Source: Lepidurus packardi
Taxonomy: Eukaryota; Arthropoda; Branchiopoda; Notostraca; Triopsidae
Assembly: GCA_023053545.1 (NCBI GenBank)
Contig: JAKZAN010000007.1
Location: forward strand, 1,550,001 to 1,614,000
Length of the DNA: 64,000 nucleotides
Direction: 5' to 3'
In this document: positions 5,171 to 29,844 of the stretch, in pieces
Layout: each line of letters opens with the position of its first letter
Numbering within the stretch: position 1 is the first letter of the stretch
Translations under genes and position numbers: made by a program
The notes under the pieces: generated by a model
Told to the model about the DNA's origin: nothing
What the model saw: the letters and a program-made list of their open reading frames with translations, nothing else
The model's database searches: none

Positions 5171-7300
5171 TCTCCACGCATCCTCAGTTTAGAAGACAAA
5201 AAAGTTGCGATTCTCTTTTCTTCTCCGAAAGGATGGCAAAAGGCACGGGGATAAAGTTGGCTGAGCGGAACGGGAGGAGGGAAAGGACCACACACTTAAC
5301 ACGTTGTAACAATATAACTGTTTGTGAAATTTGTCACCACCTAATAAATATAAACGGGACAACTCGTAGTAAAACTGTTCATCTTTAAACACAACTTAAC
5401 ACGGTTTTACGCTTTGACAAGTTGAATTTGAGGCACGAAAAAAGTACGTCATCCCACCCGACTAGACAAATCAAAATGGCGGAAAAGGGCGGGCACTCGG
5501 GTTAAGCGACAGGGGACAAAAACGTTCGCTGGAGCTTTGACCGAGACCGGCAATGGCGGCCATGCGGGAATTTTTAATATTACGTTTTCAGCCGGAAAAT
5601 TGCAAAATTTGTTTGCGTTGATAATTTTTTTTAATCCAAAAATGGGATTACACTCCGGGGGTGTATCTTTGTTGGTAGTCATGAGGATTGAGGAATTAAA
5701 GGAAATTGCTCAAATCAGATTTTGAACATTTTCGTGAAAAAATAGGATAAACAAAATTTTCGCCTAACTAGAGGAAACAGAAGGCAGAATATGGTAACTT
5801 CTTACTACTTGTTTATTGAATTAATGGCAATATGTAGTCAATGGGAGCGAATAAACTTGAAAACGTTCGGATAATTGTTCGAAATCTACTGACGCTTATC
5901 CCTTGGAATAATGTCGAACATTATCAACATTGTTACTTTTAATTAACAAAATATGATTATATGCAAGCTGATGGCCTAATACTTGGGTCTGTTTGCCTTT
6001 CAGTTTGATAAAAGTCTGATGGGAGTCGAAAAATGTGAATAAAACGGGAGCAAATTAACTGACGTGGAGTCGGCTTGGCGTCTGTTCACAAAATGGCTGG
6101 CGGGATTAATTCCGTCCACTACGCAAAGTGGCGGCGAGTGCATACAGAGGGTTGTATCATTCGCCAGAGACCCTGGTAACGTTAGCAACGAGCAACGTGA
6201 TTGGGCACTGCGTTGGGTAGTTTTTTCAAATTCCGTATTCTGGCATTCTGCGTTCTAGCAATACTACCCCCCCCCCCCAAAAAAAAAAAGACCGGAAAAT
6301 GGCAATGAATAACTGTACAAATAACAAGTAACTGTTTACAACAAATGGATAGGAACGAAAATTGTGGAAAGTCCACGTCTCCTAGCCACACTTGGGGATT
6401 AAGCAAAAAAGCTTACAATTGCTTACGACGATGTATGAATGGAGAAATATAAACATTCGTTTACATGTATAAATAACTAACTAATAAGCCGAATTCATAA
6501 GAACGAGAGCTGCGAGGTAAAGAGGACGGACCTACTATATTCCTTTTATTATTACTGATCTATTGCATTAAATTAAACTGTGAAATACATTTAAAAATAT
6601 CTTTCCTTAGTCTCACACATAACTCGCCACGTGGCATGCTATGTTTTCACTAAGCTTGATTTGAATAACATGCGAAGAAATAATGATGTCTCTCCTAAAA
6701 AATTCAAATAATAATTACCAACTGGAGCAGGCAATAGGTGAAAAAGAATAACCCAGCGGCATCTTGTTTGAGCTTGTCCAGCCCAAACTTCACAAAATCG
6801 TCCGTTTTAGACGTTAAAAAGGCCTGCATGCCCAAATGTTTGAATGAAACTTCGCACTGAAAACTCGCACAAAAACCAGAAATGAAGCTGAATGAATGCT
6901 TATAAATTAACAGGAATGTTGTTTGTAACTGCAGACAGAGTAATTTACGTAAATTCAGCTAAAAACGCAACTATTCTATATATAAAGTTATGCATAAAAA
7001 TAGTTCCTATCTGAACATGTAGCTTGTTCGACTTTGCGAGCGCGACTGAGGCTGCAAGTTGGGCAAAGCGCCGGTTGGGGCCGTTCCAGTAACGCGCACT
7101 TCAAATTCGACGGAATTGTCTAAAACAAATTTTTCTTAGGTTTAATTTTGCAGCAACAGGCCTATAAAAATTAGCCAGCATAACCCAGATACTTTCATTT
7201 CCTTTCAATCGGCTCCTGTATGGTTGGCACGAGTGAGTTAAGCTTTTGTACCCCACTATTATACCTTTCTTTAACATAAACTAACGATTAACATTGACGA
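5171..7300. other. Intergenic stretch left of the transposon
   Basis: No coding exon recognised. The segment at about 6405-6545 shares wording with 3545-3720 (gcttacaat..., then ...cataagaa and agaggac), so the repeat family of the left end continues thinly. A poly-C/poly-A junction lies at 6266-6288. The rest is AT-rich and plain. Confidence 0.4.
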
Positions 7301-7334
7301 CCCAGATAAAAATTTATCATAATAAATTATGATA
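7301..7334 (+). repeat. Left terminal inverted repeat
   Basis: Starts CCCAGATAAAAATT and matches the reverse complement of 13880-13913 at 29 of 34 positions. It runs straight into the 20-base subterminal repeat. Confidence 0.85.
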
Positions 7335-7540
7335 TATCACGATAAATTATAATCTATCACGATAAATTATAATCTATCACGATAAATTATGATCTATCAC
7401 GATAGATTATGATCTATCATGATAAGATTATGATCTATCACGTTAAATTATGATCTATCATGATACATTATGTTCTATTACGATGAATTATGATCTATCA
7501 TGACAAAATTATGCTCTATCATAGTTTATCATGATTCCAC
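7335..7540. repeat. Subterminal 20-base tandem repeat, ten copies
   Basis: Units beginning TATCAC or TATCAT (one TATTAC) start at 7335, 7355, 7375, 7395, 7415, 7436, 7456, 7476, 7496 and 7517, so the spacing is 20-21 bases. The consensus is about TATCACGATAAATTATGATC. In EnSpm-type elements, subterminal repeats bind transposon proteins; that role here is an inference. The 20-21 base spacing equals about two helical turns, so all sites would face the same side of the DNA. Confidence 0.85.
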
Positions 7541-7737
7541 GTACTTTATCATGATGTATTGCGATAGTTAGATACCGCACTTATTCAGTTTCCTCCTAGA
7601 TTTCAGGTTAAATTGTGAATAAAGCAGCCGAAATTAATATTTGTTACGAGACTAAACCATTCGATGTACTTCACAAAGCAGGAATAATAAAGGAAATTGT
7701 TACACACATCTCATACATTAATAGTCATACACTATAA

Positions 7738-10700
7738 TTAATCCTTCTCAAACCTCCTGTCAAGTTTCAGGTAAAAATTGAGGTTTGCTTTCGTCACGGA
7801 CACGTATTTTCCCCGGATATGTTGAGGGAGAACGCAAGCTATCGTGGAACTCTGGACTGTGTTCTTTACGTACATAAATTCGGTCAGGTTTAACCACGCA
7901 TACGCATCTTTTAACTGCGGAGCAGGTTTCAATGCAATTTTTGTACACATTACAACAATTGCTTTGTTTTTGGTAGTGGTGAGTGCGAAACAACGCTCCG
8001 TGTTCATGGCAAACTTGCAAGAAGTGCATACAACAAGAATATCAGATATTTCAAAAGCAGTCATTACATCGTCGGTGAAAACAGTGGAATTGTCACGCAG
8101 ATTTTTGTTCGCGTAACGCTGTGTACAAAATATTTTCCCGTTTATTGCAATACGATTGTACGCAATAGAACGCCCACATTCGAAAGGTTTCCCAAAAGCC
8201 TCCTCAATTGCAAGTTCTTCAGCAACAAAGAGCTTTCTAACATCCCCTTTTCCAATACACTCAGTAGGGAGGCTGTCCTGAGTGAATGTCTGTCGTTCAT
8301 TAACCAAAGATTCGTAGAAGTCTTGAATGCGGTCATGAGAAAGTGGCAAAAAAGCGGATGCATACTTATCCAGTAGTTTTTTAGCGTTAAAGTAGGAGAA
8401 TATTTGAATCGGCACATAACGAGTGCCGCTAAACATTGATTTAAATTCCCCGATCAAATCTTCAAAAACAAAGCCAGAATACGCCCACGGAGATCCCCAG
8501 TGGGACACATAATCAACTACGTGCAAAAGTTGATGGACATTATACGACATGTGCTCCACTCCATACAAATCGCGCACTTTAGCTACAAATTCTGCGGCAA
8601 GCAATTTAGCACGCACTAAATCTTGACCATCCATGTTTTTCGACAATAAAATACGGATTACGTTGACGAACAACATCCAATGGTAGTAATAATCTACGGC
8701 CAACAAACCCCGGAGAGCCACTGGAGAGTAATAAACCGCAAAGTTCCTGTACTCACTGGCTTTGAAAAATTTTCGGTCTCTTTCAAACGATCGAGGCAAC
8801 CTCTTAACTTCTTCGGCTGGTTTAATATTAAGTACAACGTCGTCCAACTGCCGGACTTTGGAAATATAGTACGGGGTACCCGGGTTGTCAAGCCACAGGT
8901 TGATAAACTGTCGACAAATTCCCAAGATAAGCCCGTGCATGTAGTCACTGGGCATTCCCTTGACAATGTCGAAATGAGGAATCCTCATTAATTCGCTTGG
9001 CCCACGGATCCCACGAACGTGGTCTGCCCCAGTTTCCAAAGCTTCTTTTGCGCAACTGACATAAAATTCTTTTGATTTGTATTTCGGCGGAGGTGCACTG
9101 AAGGGGAATACGGTGACGCTGCCGGCTCCTTTCTCAACGCGCTCACCAGGATGGTCACATTTCTCGCATCCGTTGTACCCATTAAACTGTTTCACGTTCA
9201 TCGCCATGGCACGTGCAGGGGCATCGCATACTCCAACAAGGCAAGTAACTTTCGACGTTCGCTTGATCCCCTTCGAGTCTGTCCATTCTAGCCCGGCATT
9301 AAAGAGATCGCGCAGTTCGTCCACAAATGGTTTCAAAACCGTGTTTCCTCTTTCCGGTTTTTGTTTCCCAAACCAGAGAGTATGCAAAAGTGCCGTTGAT
9401 CTTTTGGCTTGGAATGGAACTTCATTGATGGTAATGATGATGGGCCACACAGAGAAACCGGAGGATTTAAAGATCGGAACACCGTCAAAATTGAAAGAGA
9501 TTGAAAAATTGTTCCCGCTTTTGAGCCACGCCTGCAGATCTTCTCTTTGATACTCGTTTCCTGCGTAAACAAGGCGGTTTAGGCTGAGTTACCTGCTTAT
9601 AATTACTTCATCATTTACCCGTCATAATTTCTCCGAAGGAACGACGCTTCATACCGACGTCCGACGCTTCATACCGACGCTTCGTCTCCACAATCCGGTC
9701 CCACAGGTTATCGTTTTCCAGAGCGTGTTTCAACTGCTCTTTAAGTGGTTTTACAAGGAAAAATTTTTGCTGCTTCTGAAGTAAGGCAGCATCAATTGGC
9801 GTCTCGCATCCCATGCACAGTTGTCCATCCCAAGATTTAAGATCAGTAGCATTGCATATGTATTGGCTGCAATGATGGCAATAAAAATGCTTCTCGACCG
9901 CCTTAATACCTTGGAAAAAGTACTTCTCCAGAACGTATTTTGTTGACGGTACACATCCCGGAACAATAATGTTTAGGAGTGTAAGCAAATCTTGCAGCGC
10001 AATTTTGCTGCACTGGTGCCTAAGCACAAATGCAACGACTAGTGACAGCAGCTCCCCCTTTTTACAATCCAGGCCTGTTGCTACGGGGTCATCGCCACTG
10101 AATTGGAGACAACCAAATTTGCTTGCCGGGGCATCAAGCGGTGCCTCGTCGCTATCGTTAGGGAATCCTGCCACGGAGAAGCCTTGAATTCCATAGTCAT
10201 CATCATTTAATGCGGCACCATCATTATCGTCGACTGTAGCACTACGTTCCATGCTGAATTCGAAAATTAAGATAAGTTTTTTGTTCAAGCAAAAACGAAA
10301 ACCTTAAATTTTCATGCCATTACAGTATTATCGAAATATATTTAGTCATATTTTATTACATTATTTGTATCTATTATTATTTATTATGTTGTGTTTTTGT
10401 ATTTTTCTTTTAAACAATAAGTGAAACTTTTATTTAAATAAATTATACATTTGTTACTTTTGGCATATTTTATTTTAGTATTTGGATTGATGGTATTTAC
10501 CTGAAAGGGTAGGCTTCCTCGCCTTCTTGATCAATTACAGGCCAAAGCGATTGGTCAATACTGTCATGAGAACTACCTATTGGTAATGCTGCTATCTCGT
10601 CTTGGCATATAAAGTACGAAGGATTTTCGAAAATGTCAGACGCTGCCGCTGTTGTACCTTCACTGTTTTTATCCCTGTATATTACGGTAAAACTACTTGA

Positions 10701-10980
10701 AAGACAAATATACTATATGACGCGAGGATATAACTTACAGTGAGGAATTCTCAGCCATAATGCCTTGTTTTTGAGAATCAAAATCAGACGTTGCAAAGGC
10801 AACAGGTCCCGGCTGCTTTTCCGCATCGTCACCACTTGAGCAATTACTTTCATTCACTTTCCCTTGTGTTTCACGACGACGCAGTGTTGTGCGAGGTATT
10901 ACGACTGGTAACCCTTTTGCAGCATCTTTCAAATATTGTTTATAACTTCGTTTTCGAGTAACACTTCGAACGTCCTCCAT
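7738..10980 (-). CDS. Transposase of the CMC/EnSpm element (four exons)
   Basis: Reading the minus strand, exons 10980-10739, 10674-10501, 10253-9619 and 9560-7738 join in frame with GT-AG introns of 64, 247 and 58 bases, giving 957 residues with no stop or frameshift. The start codon is the first ATG of exon 1 (MEDVRSV). A cysteine-rich CXXC-CXXC zinc-ribbon-like segment lies near residues 260-295. The core of the animal EnSpm/tnp2-like transposases follows: FDGVPIFKSSG near 375, CDAPARAM near 463, a CXXC near 482, GMPSDYMHG near 556 and WAYSGFVFEDLIGE near 709-722. Asp 463, Asp 556 and Glu 717 are candidate catalytic acidic residues; this assignment is inferred from spacing. The enzyme should cut and join the element ends in the nucleus. 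A 20-base direct duplication sits in exon 3 (9642-9679). Its divergent neighbour starts only about 320 bases away, so the two genes probably share a promoter. Confidence 0.88.
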
Positions 10981-11200
10981 ATTTGTTTACCACACATGAG
11001 ATGTGTTCCGTACTAGATACGGAAGGTGGATTTCACTATTGCAAAATTCAATGTTACCCGATTACATGTTCTCGCTAACGTGGCACTCACGTTCCGTTCT
11101 CGACAAAGGCTAGTCGATTTTCGTAACCCCTCAAAATTTCTCTGTTGTGTACACACGATTAACGAAATATAGTAGGGTTTTAAAGTGCTTTTTCTGAAAG
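10981..11200. promoter_or_regulatory. Divergent promoter region inside the transposon
   Basis: This interval separates the start codon of the transposase (minus strand) from the first splice donor of the BEN-domain gene (11201, gtaagtgtg, plus strand). Both promoters, and the untranslated first exon of the plus-strand gene, must lie here or overlap. I see no clear TATA box. Confidence 0.45.
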
Positions 11201-11304
11201 GTAAGTGTGACTTAATTTCACAGAAGTCTCGTAACATTGTATTAACTATTTTTTACAGTTAGACACTGTTTTATTTTAATTTGTATTTCTTTTTTAACAG
11301 TGAA

Positions 11305-13481
11305 ATGTATTTTGCACTGTACGATTTTGTCTCCACTGGAGAGATTGCTATTGGACATCTCGGCTGGACAGAAAAGTTCGACTTCAGCAAACTAGAAGAA
11401 TATTCAAGGTTGGACGACCGTATTGTTTTATGGTCAGACAAGAAGTCTCGGGATTTTCACAAGAAATTTGTCGTAAAAATTCTTTCAATCAGTGGTAAGT
11501 TAAGTTTTCAGTTAAGTTTTCTATTTTTTGAAAAATAAACGCTAACAATTGTACTCGGTACTTTTATGCTATAACCCAGGGGTTCTCAAACTGTGCGCCG
11601 CGGTAGGCTTGCAGGGGCGCCGCGAAAGATTCGTATAATTTCATAGATGTAGCAGTTATATATTCAGGCATGCAAGTAGTCCCACAAGCTAAGAAAGTCG
11701 GTGCTGGAAAGCCCAGAAATGACGTTACTGGACATTCTCCGAAAAGGCCGAGCGCAAGAAACTTCAGTGGTCCAAGCCAAAGCAATGACAAAGAACAACG
11801 GAGATGCCGCGGTACAAACAACCAACGCCATCAAGACCAAACACATACGTTAGGGCCAGATTATGTTCAGGCATATTTATTTGCAAGTATATAGTGAAGT
11901 TTTTACTCTTGCAAGCGCTTAGAAAGCATGCAAATCGAGGGTGTATAACACGAATGAACCATTTCACCAATTTAAGTAGTTTGTCATTTATTTAATTTCG
12001 TAGAGAACAGAGCCCAGCTTGAAGAAGTAGCAAAATTGATCGAATTAAACAAGCTGAAAGTGAAGAATCTGCCTCTCTCCATTGTGGAGCCCTCTGTCAT
12101 CTTGGCAGAGTTGGGGGAAAAGAGGCAAAGGGTCCCAAAACAGCCATATATCGGTAGCACCTCGGACGACAATCCTGATTCAGCTGGAGAGGAAGACATC
12201 GAATTGACAGAACAAGCAGCGGTCTCGGTTGGAAGGCTCAAAAAGCGACCGTTCAAAACGAAGAATTCTAAGGTAGCGGCCAAGAAGTTTGCGGCATCAC
12301 ACAGCTTGTCCATTATGAAAGACATCATTACTGTAAGTTACAATATTTTTTTACAATCACAGTAATATTACACTAATATTACAGTAATAACTTTTCGTTT
12401 GACGTGTGTTTATAGGACAATGCTGCTGACAACGAAGACTGCCGATCTCATACGTCGAACACTTTGGCTGCGACTTCTGCTGGAGTATCTAATCCCAATG
12501 AGATCCCAGCTAAAGAGCAACCGTGCTGCTGTTCTATTGTATCCGGCGAACTGTCGGAGGTGAAGAATGCTCTCGCTTCACTCGAAAGCACAGTGAAAGA
12601 ACTTCGTAAGTTGCTATGTTCCATTTGATATTTTAGTTAATTACGTAATTGTTTTTTTGCAGTTATTCCCAACATCCAGCAACTGACGGCGGGGCTAGCC
12701 GAACTCCAGAAGTCTGTGCTTTCACCACCAGCCCGCCCTCTCAAGCATACACCACCTGTAATCCACTCGTCGCGCCGTCTGCCACTTCTTCGCCAGAGGG
12801 TATCAAATGAAGGTACTCGATTAAACAGTCAAATAATGTTCATTATAAACAAGTCTTACTGTTTTTAGGAGCCATTGAAGAGGACATAACGACCCCACCT
12901 GAGGCCGACAATGAAGAGTCGCAAGCCCTGATTGTAGACGAATCTACTTTCGCGATCGAGGTATTGTGTTAAATTTCGTGAACTGTGCAGTTGATTTTGA
13001 AAGAGCACTCTTTTTTTAGATTGAAACCTGCGTGCAGCCAGCAGAGAAGCAGGTTGTGGAAAATGCGATGTCTCAGCAGCCCCTGGCGGCAGGTCCCGAA
13101 TACCCACCAAGTAGCCCGGTGTTCCAGCAACAGACATTCGAAAGGGTTGCTTCCTATGCTGTCAGTAGCAAGGTTAACAAGTTCATTGCTGAGCTGATGG
13201 AGGGAGTGTTCACACGCAGCTATCTCAAAAGTCACTGCCTTAAAGGGACGAAGAATAGTAGTTGCCCCGTAGGAGAAAGGAAGGCTGCAATGAGGCCTGA
13301 ATACTTCAGCCTCATCAAACGTAAGACTTTTTGTGATAATCATAGGTATACGGCAAAATGTACAAATATTTTCTTTGTTCCAGGACTGACACAAGAGAGA
13401 GTAAAACCTCCGCCGACAGACAAGGAGATTGCCGACGCCATCAGAATTAAATTCAATAACTCAAGGAGGTTTCGCGAGTGA
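11305..13481 (+). CDS. Transposon accessory protein with C-terminal BEN-like domain
   Basis: Coding exons 11305-11494, 12004-12332, 12416-12605, 12663-12812, 12869-12960, 13020-13320 and 13384-13481 join in frame to 449 residues without a break. An untranslated first exon probably ends at 11200, with its acceptor at 11300, four bases before the ATG. The first 60 residues (MYFALYDFVS... GHLGW) form a compact domain I cannot name. The middle is low-complexity and basic (GRLKKRPFKTKN), followed by a probable coiled coil near residues 190-235 (SEVKNALASLESTVKEL). The last 95 residues, with KFIAELMEGVFTRSYLKSHC and a closing helix rich in lysine and arginine, resemble the BEN domain, a DNA- or protein-binding fold of chromatin factors. 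I infer that it binds the element's ends or chromatin. It is not a catalytic protein. The BEN call rests on pattern only. Confidence 0.72.
11577..11960 (+). mobile_element. hAT-like element end nested in an intron
   Basis: At 11577 the text CAGGGGTTCTCAAACTGTG followed by a GC-rich stretch with ggggcgccgcgaaag is the typical start of hAT-superfamily elements. It lies in the 509-base first coding intron of the BEN-domain gene, far longer than the neighbouring introns. The right end is uncertain. A flank match tataaccc (before 11578) and tataacac (11945) is 7 of 8 bases, as expected for an 8-base hAT target duplication, but the expected inverted end is not recognisable there. Probably a short, non-autonomous or truncated copy. 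Confidence 0.5.
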
Positions 13482-13679
13482 GATTTAATATATTCTCAAT
13501 GTCACGTTCCTTATATGTCATATTCTTACTGTGTTACATAACCGTTCATTGCCAAAATTCATTGCCAAAAAAAGTGTCAAAGTGAATAACCTATGTTACA
13601 TTACCTTTCAGTGTCAATTGTTCGAAGTACAAAATGCAACTACGTTTCAATTTTTGTTTCCTCATTATCACAAAGCTAA

Positions 13680-13913
13680 ATACGGTAAATTATAATTTAT
13701 TACGATCTAGGGTAATCACGATAAATCATGATCATCTTGATCATGATAAATTATACATCATAATTAACCATGATCATGATCATCGTAATCATCATTATCA
13801 TGATTTATCATGATTTATTATGATTTATCATGATCGATCATGATTAATCATGATGTCCAATTTATCATGATCCGGCTTTTATCATGATAAATCATGATGA
13901 ATTTTTATCTGGG
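13680..13913. repeat. Right subterminal palindrome cluster and inverted repeat
   Basis: The right end of the element is packed with ATCATGAT and TGATCATGA words, many self-complementary, in less regular spacing than at the left end. It closes with ATTTTTATCTGGG at 13901-13913, the complement of the left end. A DNA-binding protein with a palindromic site is suggested. Confidence 0.75.
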
Positions 13914-14035
13914 GAGTTTACAACGTATTGTGATTTTTTCGCAAGTTTGCGGATTAAGATTCCTTACAGGGGGGGGATCCTACCCAACGGCCTTGATTGA
14001 GCGCGCTGTTTTTAATACATAATCTTATTGTGCAA

Positions 14036-14399
14036 TTAGAGGGTTATTACTACGAACACCAGACACAGAAAGTTGAGAACATCAATGAAGTCGCTATTGT
14101 ATGGGATGTCCCAATAATAACTGATAGAACAGTCACAGCAAACCGCCCAGACAGTGCTGCATGATAAGAGAGGGAGAACCTGCCTGCTAATTGACTTCAC
14201 TGTCCCTATAAATGACTCGAACATCATGTTGAAACATACAGAAAAGACATCCAAGTATAAAGACCAGGAAATCGAGATCAGCAGGATGTGGAATTGCAAG
14301 ACGAAGACTGTGCCAGTGGTAACCGGAGCTTTGGGTACAATAAAGAAACATTTTGATCAAACCCTGAATATGCTCCCTGGTCACCCGTCAGCCGGATAA
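14036..14399 (+). pseudogene. LINE reverse-transcriptase protein tail, frameshifted
   Basis: Translation of the plus strand gives YEHQTQKVENINEV and then VWDVPIITDRTVTANRPD in one frame, followed after a frame change near 14152 by GRTCLLIDFTVPINDSN, RMWNCKTKTVPVV and a final TGALGTIKKHFDQ. This order is the well-known C-terminal region of animal non-LTR retrotransposon proteins. Loss of two bases (or gain of one) breaks the frame and the upstream RT domain is missing, so it is a dead 5'-truncated copy. It sits about 120 bases right of the DNA transposon and is unrelated to it. Confidence 0.7.
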
Positions 14400-14771: not shown

Positions 14772-17700
14772 ATGGAGGATAAGTCAGTTAAGCAGCTGCT
14801 GAAGGATGCAAGGGATGCTGTCCAACAAAACAATTATGAAACTGGTTTGAAATGTTGCAGGGTATGTTCTATATTATTATTAGTAGTGGTCCTAATTGTA
14901 ATTTTAATTTTCTCATCAAACAATTTTTGGTTTCATCAAAGGAAATCCTGCGACGTGAGAAGACCAATTATTTAGCTTTGGTCTTGTCAGCCGTTTGCTT
15001 TCAGGAAACGGAACACAATGAAAAAGCAATAACTGCGTTCAAGAAAGCTGTAGAATTACAGCCTGACCAGCCTTCTGCATGGCAAGGTTTGGTCGCATTT
15101 TTAGAAAAAAGAAAAGCTGATGGCTTGAAAACCTTGTCGACTGATGGAGAAACAATGGGCAAAGAACAAGCAGAGCTTTTAACCCAAGCGTACCACAAGC
15201 TGCAGACTTTTTATTGCAAGTATGATTCTTAATTCTGGCATTCAGCCAGTTTGCTGACATATGCTTCTTTTAGCGATTGGGCGAAATACTGCCTGGCATC
15301 CGAAAAATTAGCTCACTTGTACTTTGAGTCAGGTAGCACGTCTTCTGGTCTAAGTGTCCTGAAATCTCTTGTTCAGAAAGCAAAGGAGACCGAAGATGAA
15401 TTTCATGCCAAAGAAGCTTGGATTATTGCTACCAATTTATTACTCCGACGAGAAGATTTACCAACTCAGGAAAAACCATTGGTAAATAATAAGAAATTTG
15501 CTTTCTTCATATTCAGCCAACGTTTTCGATAGCTTATAGAAGCTTTGAAGCACTCGATTGATTCGTCTGCTTCGCCTGTCAATGAAGGACGGTGGTCCAA
15601 ACTTATTACCTTATTGGAAACAAGCAAAGCTGTAGAAGAAGCTCGCAAAATGCTTCAACGTTTTCCGCATGCTTCAGTTGCATTGCAAACACTTGCCGAT
15701 CATTACGTAACAAAATTCGCGGAAAAAGGTCAAGCAATCGCAGAGGAAATAGAAGCTGTAACGGAACGCATGCCTGTCGAGAACTCTGCAGCTATTCAAG
15801 GTGTATTAGCTGCAATAAAAAACGAGCTGATGGAGGCAAAGAAGTATTTCAGTTTGGCCGTTGCACAGGATGAGACCAACACTCGTCTTCATCAATTACT
15901 GTACGACACTTTGCAAAAAGCGTTGCTTTTCGAAGAAGCAGCCAAAGTCGCGCGTAAATGGATATCTTTAGATATATCGAGCCTTTCTCCGAAGCTGGCT
16001 TTAATTCAAGCATGTATCAGCTGCGATGGGACGTCTTTAGAAGAAGCAGAAAAGTTTGCAATGGAAATTTTGGACAAATATCCGAAGCAAGTTAACGCAA
16101 AGGTCTGTTTGGCAAGAATACATGTTAGAAGGCACGATGTGATACAAGCGCGTGCTTTGCTCGAAGAAGTAAAAAGTACATGTGCGGATGAGCGTCACGA
16201 TGTCCTACTCCTTGAAGCGGAATGCTTGGAAGGCGAAGGTTTTGTCATAGATGCCGTCAAATTCCTAGAGCAGTTTGAAGATAACTTGAACTTGCCCTCG
16301 CTTCTCTTTCTGGCACACTGTCAAGAAGTCGCCTTTAGTTGGAAAGCAAGTGCCAACACTTTGGTCAAAGTACGTTGATTTCCACTGAATACCCATGTAA
16401 CTCATGTTCAAAGTTTTGCAGATCGCTAAGCTTCACCCGTACGCTGGCGAAGTCTATAGACGGTTAGGCGTTTTGCTGTGCCAAAAAGCTGGAGATACAG
16501 AAAAAGGTTTAAGGTGTCTACAGAAAGCCTTGACTTTAACTCCTACTGACAAGAAAATTGCGAAGACGTTAAGCGACTCATACCAGGCAGTCAATGATAT
16601 TGTAATTCCCTGACAAAGATATTTTCGGATTCTGGGTTAATCTACCGCCATTTCTAGGACAGGCATGTTTCCTTGTTACGAGCCGTGACTCAGATTCATG
16701 GCCCTCCATGGGCCTGGTTGCGTTTGGGGTTGCTGCATTTGAAAATGGGAGACGTGAGCCAAAGCGTGTTTAGCTTACAAAATGCTGTTAGAACGCAACC
16801 TAACGATGGATTGTATTGGGAAGCTTTGGCTGACGCCTATGTCCAACGCGGCTCGTATACAGCTGCTTTGAAAGCGTTTCAAAAAGCCGCCGAGCTTCTG
16901 CAAACTGCCGGCAAACCTACAGCGTACGCCGATTTCCAAATCGCCTTTGCTTACCAGGTATTCACTTGAGATCCACGATCCAATTTCTCTTGAATTCTGG
17001 GATGTCTCTGATTCAGATGATCGGAGATGTTGATGAAGCTTTAAAACGCTACGAAAGTGTTCTAGCTTCAGCCAACGAGTTGACGCTTGTTCCATCCCTT
17101 AAAGGCATAGCAGAAACTTTAACACTGCAAGCGCAATTATATTTGAGAGAAGGGAGACCAGGAAGTGCTCTCGATAACTGCCAAGCAGCTGTTTTACATC
17201 TAACAAGGTAATACTTTATTTTTGCTACCTTTTTTAAAATTTAACTGACTTGTCTTTGAAGAGCCGTACAGTTAAGACCAGATATGTCCTGCTTGTGGAC
17301 TTCGATTGGTCATAGCTGCCTATTGTTACGTGGTTTGGCTAAAAAATCAGTCTCTTTGACGGTTAGCTCCTGTTTATTTACGGATAACGTTAACTTACGG
17401 GCTGCTAATCACATCGTTTTGGACAAAAAAGCTATTATGCGTCTTGCAGCCAGGTCTTCTCCGTTTATAAAGTGTAATAACGAATCGACTAATGGTTAAA
17501 TGTTCGCTAGAATGTTCTGCAAAGCTATAAAACTAAAACCATCTATGTCCGCCTTGTGGCACAACTTGGGTTTGGCGTATTACCACCAAACTAGCTTGAC
17601 CGATTCACTGGAAGATCAGTCCCATTTGCAAGCCTTGGCTGAAGCTGCAGCTAAAAAGGCATGCAATGTGTACCGTGTTGACGAGAAAACTTTCGTCTGA

Positions 17701-26786: not shown

Positions 26787-28124
26787 CTTACCAAACAATA
26801 TCCGAGTGTTATTCTATTCGCTTGTTCTATTGCAAGGCACGGTGTGATTGTGTTTCCAGGCAAGTTTACCTAGACCCTGACCTTGTCAGTTGTTCCGCCT
26901 TACGTATAGTGCGTAAGGATTTGCATCCCACATGATAAGATAACTCAAAACAGTGGGAATCCAAAGATAAGAATACGCGTGTCTTCGTCTTTCGCGGTCA
27001 GCTAAATGTAATCTGTAGGTCCAGTGTATATACACGACAATGTAGTGTATATTCTGATGCCATTGCCTCTGGAATTCGCTTGAAGCGTTATGCAAACCCA
27101 CGTTCGTTGAATATATAGCGAAAGTTCAACGTGGAAGTCGCAGTCGATCACTTACGGTTGAACAAGCTATACAGTTTTCTGTTCACGAGACCTGTTGTAC
27201 CATTAGTTTATTCAGTACTTACTGTGGCTCAGTTCCTTAAAATCCTGAGTATAATTGTCTGTAACCGTTTGTGTTCTTTAAGCATTCTGGAGCCCACTTC
27301 CAGGTAACAAGGTGGTAGGAATGGTTTGCGTTACTTTGGAGTGAAAGCGGAGTGATTTAAATTTACTTTGTTACATAGACACTCTCGGTAATAATTACCC
27401 TTCTTTATTATATCCGGGTATTTCCAGCCTGCTACGTTTAGGGGGAAATCCCTTCGAAACCCCCGCAGTCAATAAATGAACAGGTTATTCGACTGAATGA
27501 CCAGTTCCTTTCACTGACTCGGTAATTTGGAAGGGATATCGTGTTGAGAACCCTACCTAAGCGTAGGACTAGGCTTCAGAGGCGTAGGCTAATGTTAGTT
27601 TTGTTTTGGACGCGTGGTTACATAAAAACGGAGATGAGCAAGAAAAGAGTTGATTTAAATATAAAAGAGAACTTGCGACTCATTGAAACTTATGCCACGT
27701 TAAATTTTAAAGATTTGCCACTTATAAATACACACATTCCCGGTGTTCGGTTAATAGAATCTCCGCTTATTGAAATCAAAATTGACCGGACAAATATGAT
27801 CACAATAAGCGGCATCTACAGCATTTCTCTATCGCCATATTCCTATTAAAGAAAAGAAAACACGTTATCGTTTCCTTATTTTTACTTTAAAAAAAAGTTC
27901 GCCTATTACTCGAGAATGTGATAATGAACGAAGGAAATTCATGCATGACCGTTGCCGTTTACATAATTCATGGTCAAGGCCACGAGAATAAACCTACAGG
28001 GAAAGTTAAGAACATGTTCGGAACTGTTAAATTTAAGTTATTTTACATTATAACGTCCATTATAACATTTAGTTTACTTTGTGTCCTTTGATTGAAATGT
28101 GAGTAGTTTGGTTTTTCTTTGTAG
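26787..28124. other. Intergenic spacer, UBAP1 to SLC46-type gene
   Basis: No convincing coding exon. A 102-codon open frame at 27541-27849 has no recognisable domain. One or more 5' exons of the following transporter gene should lie here, because its first recognised exon opens in phase 1 after an acceptor at 28124; a candidate start is ATG at about 27923 with donor near 27971, but this is weak. Confidence 0.4.
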
Positions 28125-29844
28125 ATCCCGAAGAATCTGAAGCCCGAGAGGCTTTAATCAAGCCTTCGATTGGCTTGACACCCCTTTCACAGCGTGTGTA
28201 TCCTTCACTGTATACTTGTCTTCCAATTATGACGACAGGGTTAGACAACTTTCGAAACAAGTGGGCATCAAGGACAAACATTACGGTGGAACCGGTCCTG
28301 TTTTTTTACATGCTGGCCACTTTTATGCAATACTCGTTTTTCCAAGACCTAGTGTATGAGAAAGTGTGTAGAGAAAATTTTAACAAAACCATCTGCCTAA
28401 ACTTGACTGGCCTGGAGAGTAAGGATGCACTAGATTTGGTACAAACACAGGCTTCGCACTGGATTCTCTGCTCGACCGTCGCCTTAACCGTGCCTTCCAT
28501 GATCGTCGCCAGCTATTTAGGGTCTTGGAGCGATACCTTTGGTCGGAAGCTTCCATTATACACTCCTGCAATGGGCATGGTTCTCGCCTGTATCATTTAC
28601 ATCCTTATGTCTGTCTACGACTCCATGTCTGTCTCCTATATTATCCTGGCTTCGTTCATATCAGGAATCTCGGGCGGCTTCGTCAGTTGCATCATGGGGG
28701 TTATGTATGCCTTCTTCATTAAGAGCCCTTTGAGGCACATTTAAACTCTACCCTTTTTTATAGGAGCTACATGTCAGCCATTACCAATGACAACAACCGC
28801 TCTTTGCGTGTCGCATATTTGGAGGCTATGACATTCGTTGGAGGTACCATCGGTCCGTTTATTGGAGGGGGAATTATGTCTGCCACTCAATCGCATGCCA
28901 TCGTCTTCGGCGTTATTATGGGGGCGTACATTTGCCAAATCCTATACGTGTTTTTCTTTGTATGTGAAGTGCAGGGCACTGCCCTGGACTCGACACCTTC
29001 AGACGTGTCTTTTTGCTACAAATACTTTAACGGACGCTACTTTGTTGAAGCTTTTAAGACGAATCTGAGGTCTAGAGAAGAGCATAAACGCCTACATCTT
29101 AATCTGCTCATTGCGGCGGCTTTAGTGGCTATGATTGTGGTTGCCGGAGAAGGCGACGTGGGTTACTTATACACCCGAGACGATCCATTAGATTGGGATG
29201 TTTCCACCTATTCGTATTTCTTCGGAATGAAATATGGTGTTGGCGCATTGTCACTATTTATCGCTATGCCTATAGCAAGGCATTTTAAGGCAAATATTAA
29301 AGGAATTTTGACTAATCTTAAATGAGCCTGCCTTATATTTTTTAGTTGCACGATACAATGGTGGCGCTAGTGGGGTTAATTTCTCGAGCTGCCGGTTTAG
29401 TACTCACGGGTTTAGCCAGAACTACCACAGTGATGTTTTCTGGTAATTATGGCGAATCCATATACAGTAGGACATTTATTAATTCAATAATGTGATATAG
29501 TTCCTTTCGTGGGCTTATTGGGTACGTTGTGCTTGCCAGCGATACGGTCGATGTCCTCCAAGCAAGTTGAATCTGACGAATTGGGCAAGCATTTCGCCTA
29601 CATAGCCATTATCGAAAACATTTGCACATTACTTGGATCAGCCATTTTTAACTCTCTGTACCCTGCAACACGAAGTTTCTTTGGTGGCTTTTCCTTCGAG
29701 TTTGCAGCATTTCTTTTAACGTTCCCCATGGGTATCATGCTTTTTATAAGATACGACCTTCATAAAACAGAAAGGAGAAAAATACGTGAGTCAAGACAAG
29801 TCATTGGGGAAGCTGTCAGTTGTGAAACTATTCCAGATAAATAG
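28125..29844 (+). CDS. SLC46-type major facilitator transporter
   Basis: Exons 28125-28704, 28764-29289, 29346-29442 and 29501-29844 join in frame, about 515 codons, or 480 residues if the ATG at 28229 is the start. The sequence is a twelve-helix major facilitator protein. TITVEPVLFLYM-like wording appears as NITVEPVLFFYM in the first helix; the loop between helices 2 and 3 has LGSWSDTFGRKLPL, the family's G-x-x-x-D-x-x-G-R-K signature; SLRVAYLEAMTFVGGTIGPF is the helix 5 region. This pattern is that of SLC46 (the folate/heme proton-coupled transporter group, including SLC46A3). Substrate cannot be told from sequence. Conserved cysteines and N-glycosylation sites occur in the first outer loop (FNKTICLNLTG). 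The intron after 29289 starts with GC rather than GT (AAG|gcaaat). A 5' exon is missing from my model. Confidence 0.85.

Follow-up and report, generated by a model that had tools for sequence, protein, structure and literature searches.

What does a transposon gain from a second gene whose product ends in a BEN-like domain? The question is raised by a locus of Lepidurus packardi that lies within a 64-kb stretch of DNA (C6:1550001-1614000, here called the window). A sequence-only reading of this stretch had described an apparently intact EnSpm/CMC transposon with a transposase gene and a partner gene, and had proposed that the partner is a BEN-type DNA-binding protein. We analyzed the borders, copies, genes and ends of the element; its features are listed in Table 1.

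Table 1. Features of the transposon, in window positions
Feature	Position	Strand	Remarks
Whole transposon	7301..13913		6613 bp; the 100% alignment with copy B ends exactly at these positions
Left TSD copy, GA	7299..7300		read at the flank and by copy comparison
Right TSD copy, GA	13914..13915		read at the flank and by copy comparison
Left TIR, starts CCCAG	7301..7334	+	34-nt arm of the inverted pair
Right TIR, ends CTGGG	13880..13913	-	34-nt arm of the inverted pair
Left subterminal array	7316..7555		17 8-mers of ATCATGAT type, 4 exact
Right subterminal array	13689..13898		15 8-mers of ATCATGAT type, 11 exact
Transposase gene, 957 aa	7738..10980	-	4 exons: 10980-10739, 10674-10501, 10253-9619, 9560-7738
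Transposase_21 domain, aa 367-489	9145..9513	-	includes D376, D463, C482, C485
Second gene, 449 aa	11305..13481	+	7 exons; present in 4/4 full copies
Second-gene exons	11305-11494, 12004-12332, 12416-12605, 12663-12812, 12869-12960, 13020-13320, 13384-13481	+
Coiled-coil-like stretch, aa 221-255	12557..12718	+	intron-interrupted; sub-cut-off GIT_CC match
BEN-like domain part 1, aa 365-417	13161..13320	+	phmmer to BEND6 7yul
BEN-like domain part 2, to aa 444	13384..13463	+	phmmer to BEND6 7yul

The element has the ends and the transposase of the animal TRC branch

Comparison of independent insertions confirmed the inverted CCCAG...CTGGG borders that had been proposed for the element. The two 34-nt arms of the terminal inverted repeats (TIRs) are 85% complementary and match exactly over their outermost 14 nt, as read from the sequence. 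Among the copies found in the genome (344 contigs, 108.6 Mb), CCCAG is present at all four left ends and CTGGG at all five right ends. These ends are common to different sites, and the possibility that they are an artefact of tandem repeats was rejected. All four full copies are flanked by 2-bp target site duplications (TSDs), namely GA, TT, TA and AA, the first of these being the pair already noticed at both flanks of the window element. Copy B is inserted into a host array with a 20-bp period. Removing one TT from this site restores the period best, at 80/100 positions compared with 59-72/100 for eight other deletion offsets, which supports the 2-bp duplication at copy B. AATTCATGAATT palindromes built around a CATG core also occur in the array flanking copy B (contig C343); these possibly reflect a target preference and were seen at one of the four sites.

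Exon models built from open frames and splice signals gave three GT-AG introns and 958 codons including the stop for the transposase, and six GT-AG introns and 450 codons including the stop for the second gene, in agreement with the earlier counts and in-frame splice joins. The two genes are transcribed divergently. The transposase matches Transposase_21 (PF02992) in Pfam with 40.7 bits (cut-off 28.6; E=1.9e-10). Alignment with seven other transposases of the genome (eight sequences in all) showed no variation at D376, D463, C482-x2-C485, H693-x3-H697 or E717. The motifs C(2)C and H(3)H hence lie between the second D and the last E, and the accessible part of PMC12730594 gives the order in EnSpm/CMC transposases as D...D...C(2)C...H(3-4)H...E. 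These motifs, by which the catalytic roles were assigned, lend good support to cutting by a CMC-type DDE enzyme. Six peptide patterns for the main transposase exon detected no confirmed relatives in viral or prokaryotic contigs.

Plant CACTA elements have a CACTA terminal core and a 3-bp duplication, whereas the window element ends in CCCAG and has a 2-bp duplication; it can therefore be filed only under the animal TRC branch. In schistosomes and insects, TRC elements are characterized by CCC termini, 2-bp duplications and Transposase_21, according to the accessible sections of their description (PMC1636069). The elements of Schistosoma, Aedes and Tribolium described there have the CCC core and a size range like that of the window element, and the Aedes terminus CCCAGTCAAC begins with CCCAG, as does the window element. 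The same sections report that TRC and CACTA proteins are detectably similar only in the Transposase_21 part. By its terminal CCC, 2-bp TSD, Transposase_21 domain and D-D-C(2)C-H(3)H-E motifs, the element belongs to the animal TRC branch within CACTA/EnSpm. Its ends, domain, motifs and two genes bear out the original description as a two-gene EnSpm/CMC element, and it is apparently a complete cut-and-paste transposon that transposed recently.

Several other features were observed in the window. An open stretch just right of the element (14121-14399) has no Pfam match and, judging by its sequence, may be a retroelement remnant. Host-like coding sequence at 28103-29325 and 15533-16378 gave Pfam matches to an MFS transporter, above the cut-off in the second stretch and below it in the first, and to TPR repeats. 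At 817-1038, an 81-bp unit is repeated in tandem 2.7 times with 93% matches. Rfam and tRNA scans of the window found nothing.

An identical copy at an unrelated site indicates recent movement

The search for further copies that the sequence-only reading had recommended identified four full copies (A, in the window, and B, C and D), all with the same ends and with both genes, including the plus-strand gene, and one partial copy (E) that consists only of the right part of the element. Copy B on contig C343 is identical to the window element at 6613/6613 bases. As the alignment stops exactly at the element borders and the flanking DNA is unrelated to that of the window, a haplotig or assembly duplicate was rejected as the source of the 100% copy. 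The presence of an identical copy at another site indicates that the element moved very recently, which supports the earlier impression of a young copy.

Copies C and D (contigs C2 and C1) are 11.7-kb composites with the same ends and a nested non-LTR retroelement of 5.08 kb with endonuclease and reverse transcriptase domains (Pfam), which is bordered by a repeat of ATTGCGATAGT, as read from the copy sequences. The insert lies in the left subterminal region, at L069:1248-6340 in C2 and also in L071/L072 in C1. The shared insert, the 99.7% likeness of C and D and their different host flanks suggest that the element apparently moved again carrying its retroelement cargo, as an 11.7-kb composite. 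The main aligned block is about 2% different between the A/B group and the C/D/E group (identities of 98.2, 98.4 and 97.9%).

Both genes are open in A and B. Copy D has an open transposase reading frame, individual splice sites aside, but its second gene lacks the start codon and, as read from the sequence, the GT of intron 1. Copy C has frameshifts in both genes and a stop in the transposase. In the comparison of A/B with C/D, the second gene differed at 1 synonymous codon and at 11 nonsynonymous codons for D and 13 for C, and the transposase at 3 synonymous and 8 nonsynonymous codons each time. Hence, there was no signal of purifying selection on either gene between the subfamilies, the numbers being small and the broken copies drifting freely. 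The absence of this signal counts against a strong functional claim for the genes.

Such a pattern would be expected if the second gene were a captured host BEN gene that is carried as a passenger but not needed, and the distant relationship of its BEN-like domain to the other BEN domains of the genome would also agree with this. On the other hand, the gene is retained in every full copy found, in A and B with its open frame and all six introns, and BEN genes recur beside other transposases of the superfamily. No host parent gene was found either, in a search that scores the best candidates only: all 29 matches to the second gene lay on the five copies, with none outside the element. We regard a passenger gene as unlikely. 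A fresh capture of a host gene was rejected, as this search of the assembly showed no other relative of the second protein among its best candidates. Six peptide patterns for the second protein gave no confirmed relatives in viral contigs.

The second protein has a divergent BEN-like C-terminus

A phmmer search of PDB with all 449 residues of the second protein returned BEND6 (7yul) as the sole match at E<=10 (E 0.00097). The 106-aa domain alone matched BEND6 at E 0.0001 with 80 collinear residues, the next matches being two leucine-rich-repeat chains (E 0.044 and 1.3), and the reversed domain had no match among PDB sequences. The Pfam BEN profile (PF10523; cut-off 23.2) remained below its cut-off for the whole protein (residues 371-426, 12.5 bits, E 0.18) and for the domain alone (16.1 bits, E 0.013). 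Pfam also assigned the reversed domain weakly to another family (E 0.063, compared with 0.013 for the real domain), so that Pfam alone is insufficient for a BEN claim. A profile of the other genomic BENs gave 1.5 bits with the second protein, and the best of 5000 shuffles reached 10.2 bits. The proposed BEN-like C-terminus thus stands in its similarity to BEND6 in phmmer but not as a match to the Pfam BEN profile. We call it a divergent BEN-like domain, on the strength of a distant likeness to BEND6-type BENs that is below the Pfam cut-off.

Among the Pfam matches of the full-length second protein, GIT_CC had the lowest E-value (0.00079; 19.5 bits, below the cut-off of 28.7), and this coiled-coil-like stretch is a possible dimer interface. 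A structure model from the single sequence of the unspliced exon pair had a pLDDT of 41, too low to be of use. The last intron (13321-13383) is 63 bp long and open in frame; hence, an isoform that retains it would have 21 additional residues within the BEN-like domain. DUF4806, a related class of DNA-binding domain, is described as a BEN subtype in the accessible part of PMC11075544, which cites Pan et al. 2023. The second protein has no Pfam match to DUF4806, and none of three genomic DUF4806 places (C1:4213102, C4:5221851 and C1:3208011) is near any transposase listed.

Both ends carry phased arrays of palindrome-like units

The left 280 bp of the element contain 17 and the right 243 bp contain 15 8-mers of the ATCATGAT type, whereas the 6,090-bp middle contains none; 6 more occur elsewhere in the 64-kb window. 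This motif set was picked after viewing the ends; the informative observation is how the ends contrast with the middle. Spacings are exactly 10 bp, about one turn of DNA, in 11/16 cases on the left and 7/14 on the right (18/30 in all), and the number of units varies among copies in steps of 10 or 20 bp (unpolarised). The right end has a clear excess of perfect 8-bp palindromes (17, compared with at most 8 in 1000 shuffles), and the 7 at the left end are within the range of the shuffles (up to 9 in 1000).

The accessible parts of PMC7764960 and PMC11472053 name CATG palindromes as the sites selected by the human NAC1 BEN domain and the palindrome CCAATTGG as the target of Insv and Bsg25A. The array units of the window element are likewise palindrome-like. 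NAC1 is reported there to bind as a monomer or at about 1:1 and NAC2 to have a non-palindromic target, and a dimer on a palindrome is therefore not implied. We infer that the second protein may bind the ATCATGAT-type arrays.

How might such binding serve the element? In maize Spm, repeated binding sites lie near both ends, and TnpA helps to bring the ends together for the transposase or regulates its access. By analogy, the second protein probably has a TnpA-like role, in which it would bind the end arrays and assemble or regulate the transposition complex. The transposase would cut the CCCAG ends, and the BEN-like protein, perhaps as a dimer via the coiled-coil-like region, would coat the phased units at both ends, with ATCATGAT-type units bound along one face of the DNA. 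The bound protein could then help to pair the ends, or control access and expression of the transposase.

Alternatively, the BEN-like protein could be a regulator outside the cutting complex, its binding to the ends serving to repress, insulate or de-silence transcription. VANC proteins act in this manner for plant VANDAL elements, and Insv/ELBA act at insulators. A regulator would suit the divergent genes, with the arrays at the gene ends, and would also be in keeping with the BEN proteins described to date, which act as chromatin and transcription factors (PMC11472053 and PMC7764960, in the parts accessible). Arrays at both extreme ends beside the TIRs suit end recognition instead, but are not decisive. 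We regard a purely regulatory protein as somewhat unlikely and favor a TnpA-like role. The ranking of a TnpA-like role before a regulator, and of a regulator before a passenger, is unchanged by the palindrome count at the left end, the reversed-domain control in Pfam or the reports of monomer binding.

BEN genes accompany other transposases of the genome

Among the other BEN domains of the genome, 11 of the 15 matches listed are above the Pfam cut-off. A profile of four of these BENs and the window domain matched BEND6 (5e-12), 4ix7 (1e-10) and Bsg25A (4e-7) in PDB; as it includes the window domain, it is not an independent test of that domain. The entry 4ix7 is listed as RE55538p, which we take to be Insv.

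We compared 22 BEN places outside the window family with 22 transposase places of a second group, 31-39% identical to the window transposase (group 2), both sets being compiled by hand. Overlapping BEN stretches were merged, the partial stretches C2:1573013 and C1:4040087 were kept and two sub-cut-off rows (C6:7474216 and C6:9646537) were left out. For the transposases, short fragments were retained and overlaps merged, and two sets were excluded: copies belonging to the window family and a distant group (about 25-34% identical to the search query). A group-2 transposase or a fragment of one was located no more than 10 kb away from 14 of the 22 BEN stretches (0.10 expected), although these are not 14 independent events, as the copies are related, and two of the links (C1:4040529 and C1:4040087) depend solely on similarity to residues 1-46 of the query. 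Six of the 14 have the BEN upstream on the opposite strand, as in the window; in the others it is downstream, on the same strand (4) or the opposite strand (2), or upstream on the same strand (2). The other 8 BEN stretches have no group-2 transposase within 10 kb. One of them, C5:10357014, is 5.9 kb from a transposase of the distant group, and another, C6:1548408-1548748, is a decayed BEN, 81% like a group-2 BEN, about 8.6 kb left of the window element and shortly beyond the edge of the window.

In the window family the BEN gene is enclosed by the borders of the element; for group 2 the pairing is one of proximity. No simple terminal repeat was seen in three stretches examined for the ends of group-2 elements. 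Two group-2 transposases have an inverted BEN on both sides (C6:3431741, C6:3438775, C1:4589336 and C1:4581881), and the flanking BENs look as if they lay in long inverted ends or had been duplicated. The window BEN is only distantly related to the group-2 BENs, which is compatible with a common ancestor as well as with separate recruitment.

Discussion

To our knowledge, TnpA has no BEN domain. The window element ends in CCCAG and En/Spm, covered in part by PMC1636069, in CACTA, and both have a transposase and a second, here putative, DNA-binding protein. TnpA and TnpD of En/Spm come from one transcription unit by splicing, whereas the window element has two divergent genes. The TRC description in the same source names no BEN domain in the sections accessible, in contrast to the divergent, BEN-like second gene described here. 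BEND6, the best PDB match of the second protein, Insv, Bsg25A/Elba1 and NAC1 have BEN domains as host chromatin or transcription factors, whereas the window BEN belongs to a transposon gene.

TRC/EnSpm elements and BEN proteins are already known, each separately. Among the titles listed by full-text searches, none paired BEN with EnSpm/CACTA, nor is the pairing in the accessible parts of PMC5704228, PMC11075544 and PMC12730594; an earlier notice of the pairing is possible.

Within this one genome, transposons of one superfamily repeatedly accompany BEN genes. The intact ends, two open genes, identical copy and candidate array make the role of the second protein directly testable. Other transposon DNA-binding domains have been domesticated. 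It is conceivable, but in our view unlikely, that BEN is an old and standard end-recognition partner of animal EnSpm/TRC elements, and that some BEN factors descended from there or were exchanged with it. If true, this would provide a testable transposon origin for BEN chromatin and insulator factors.
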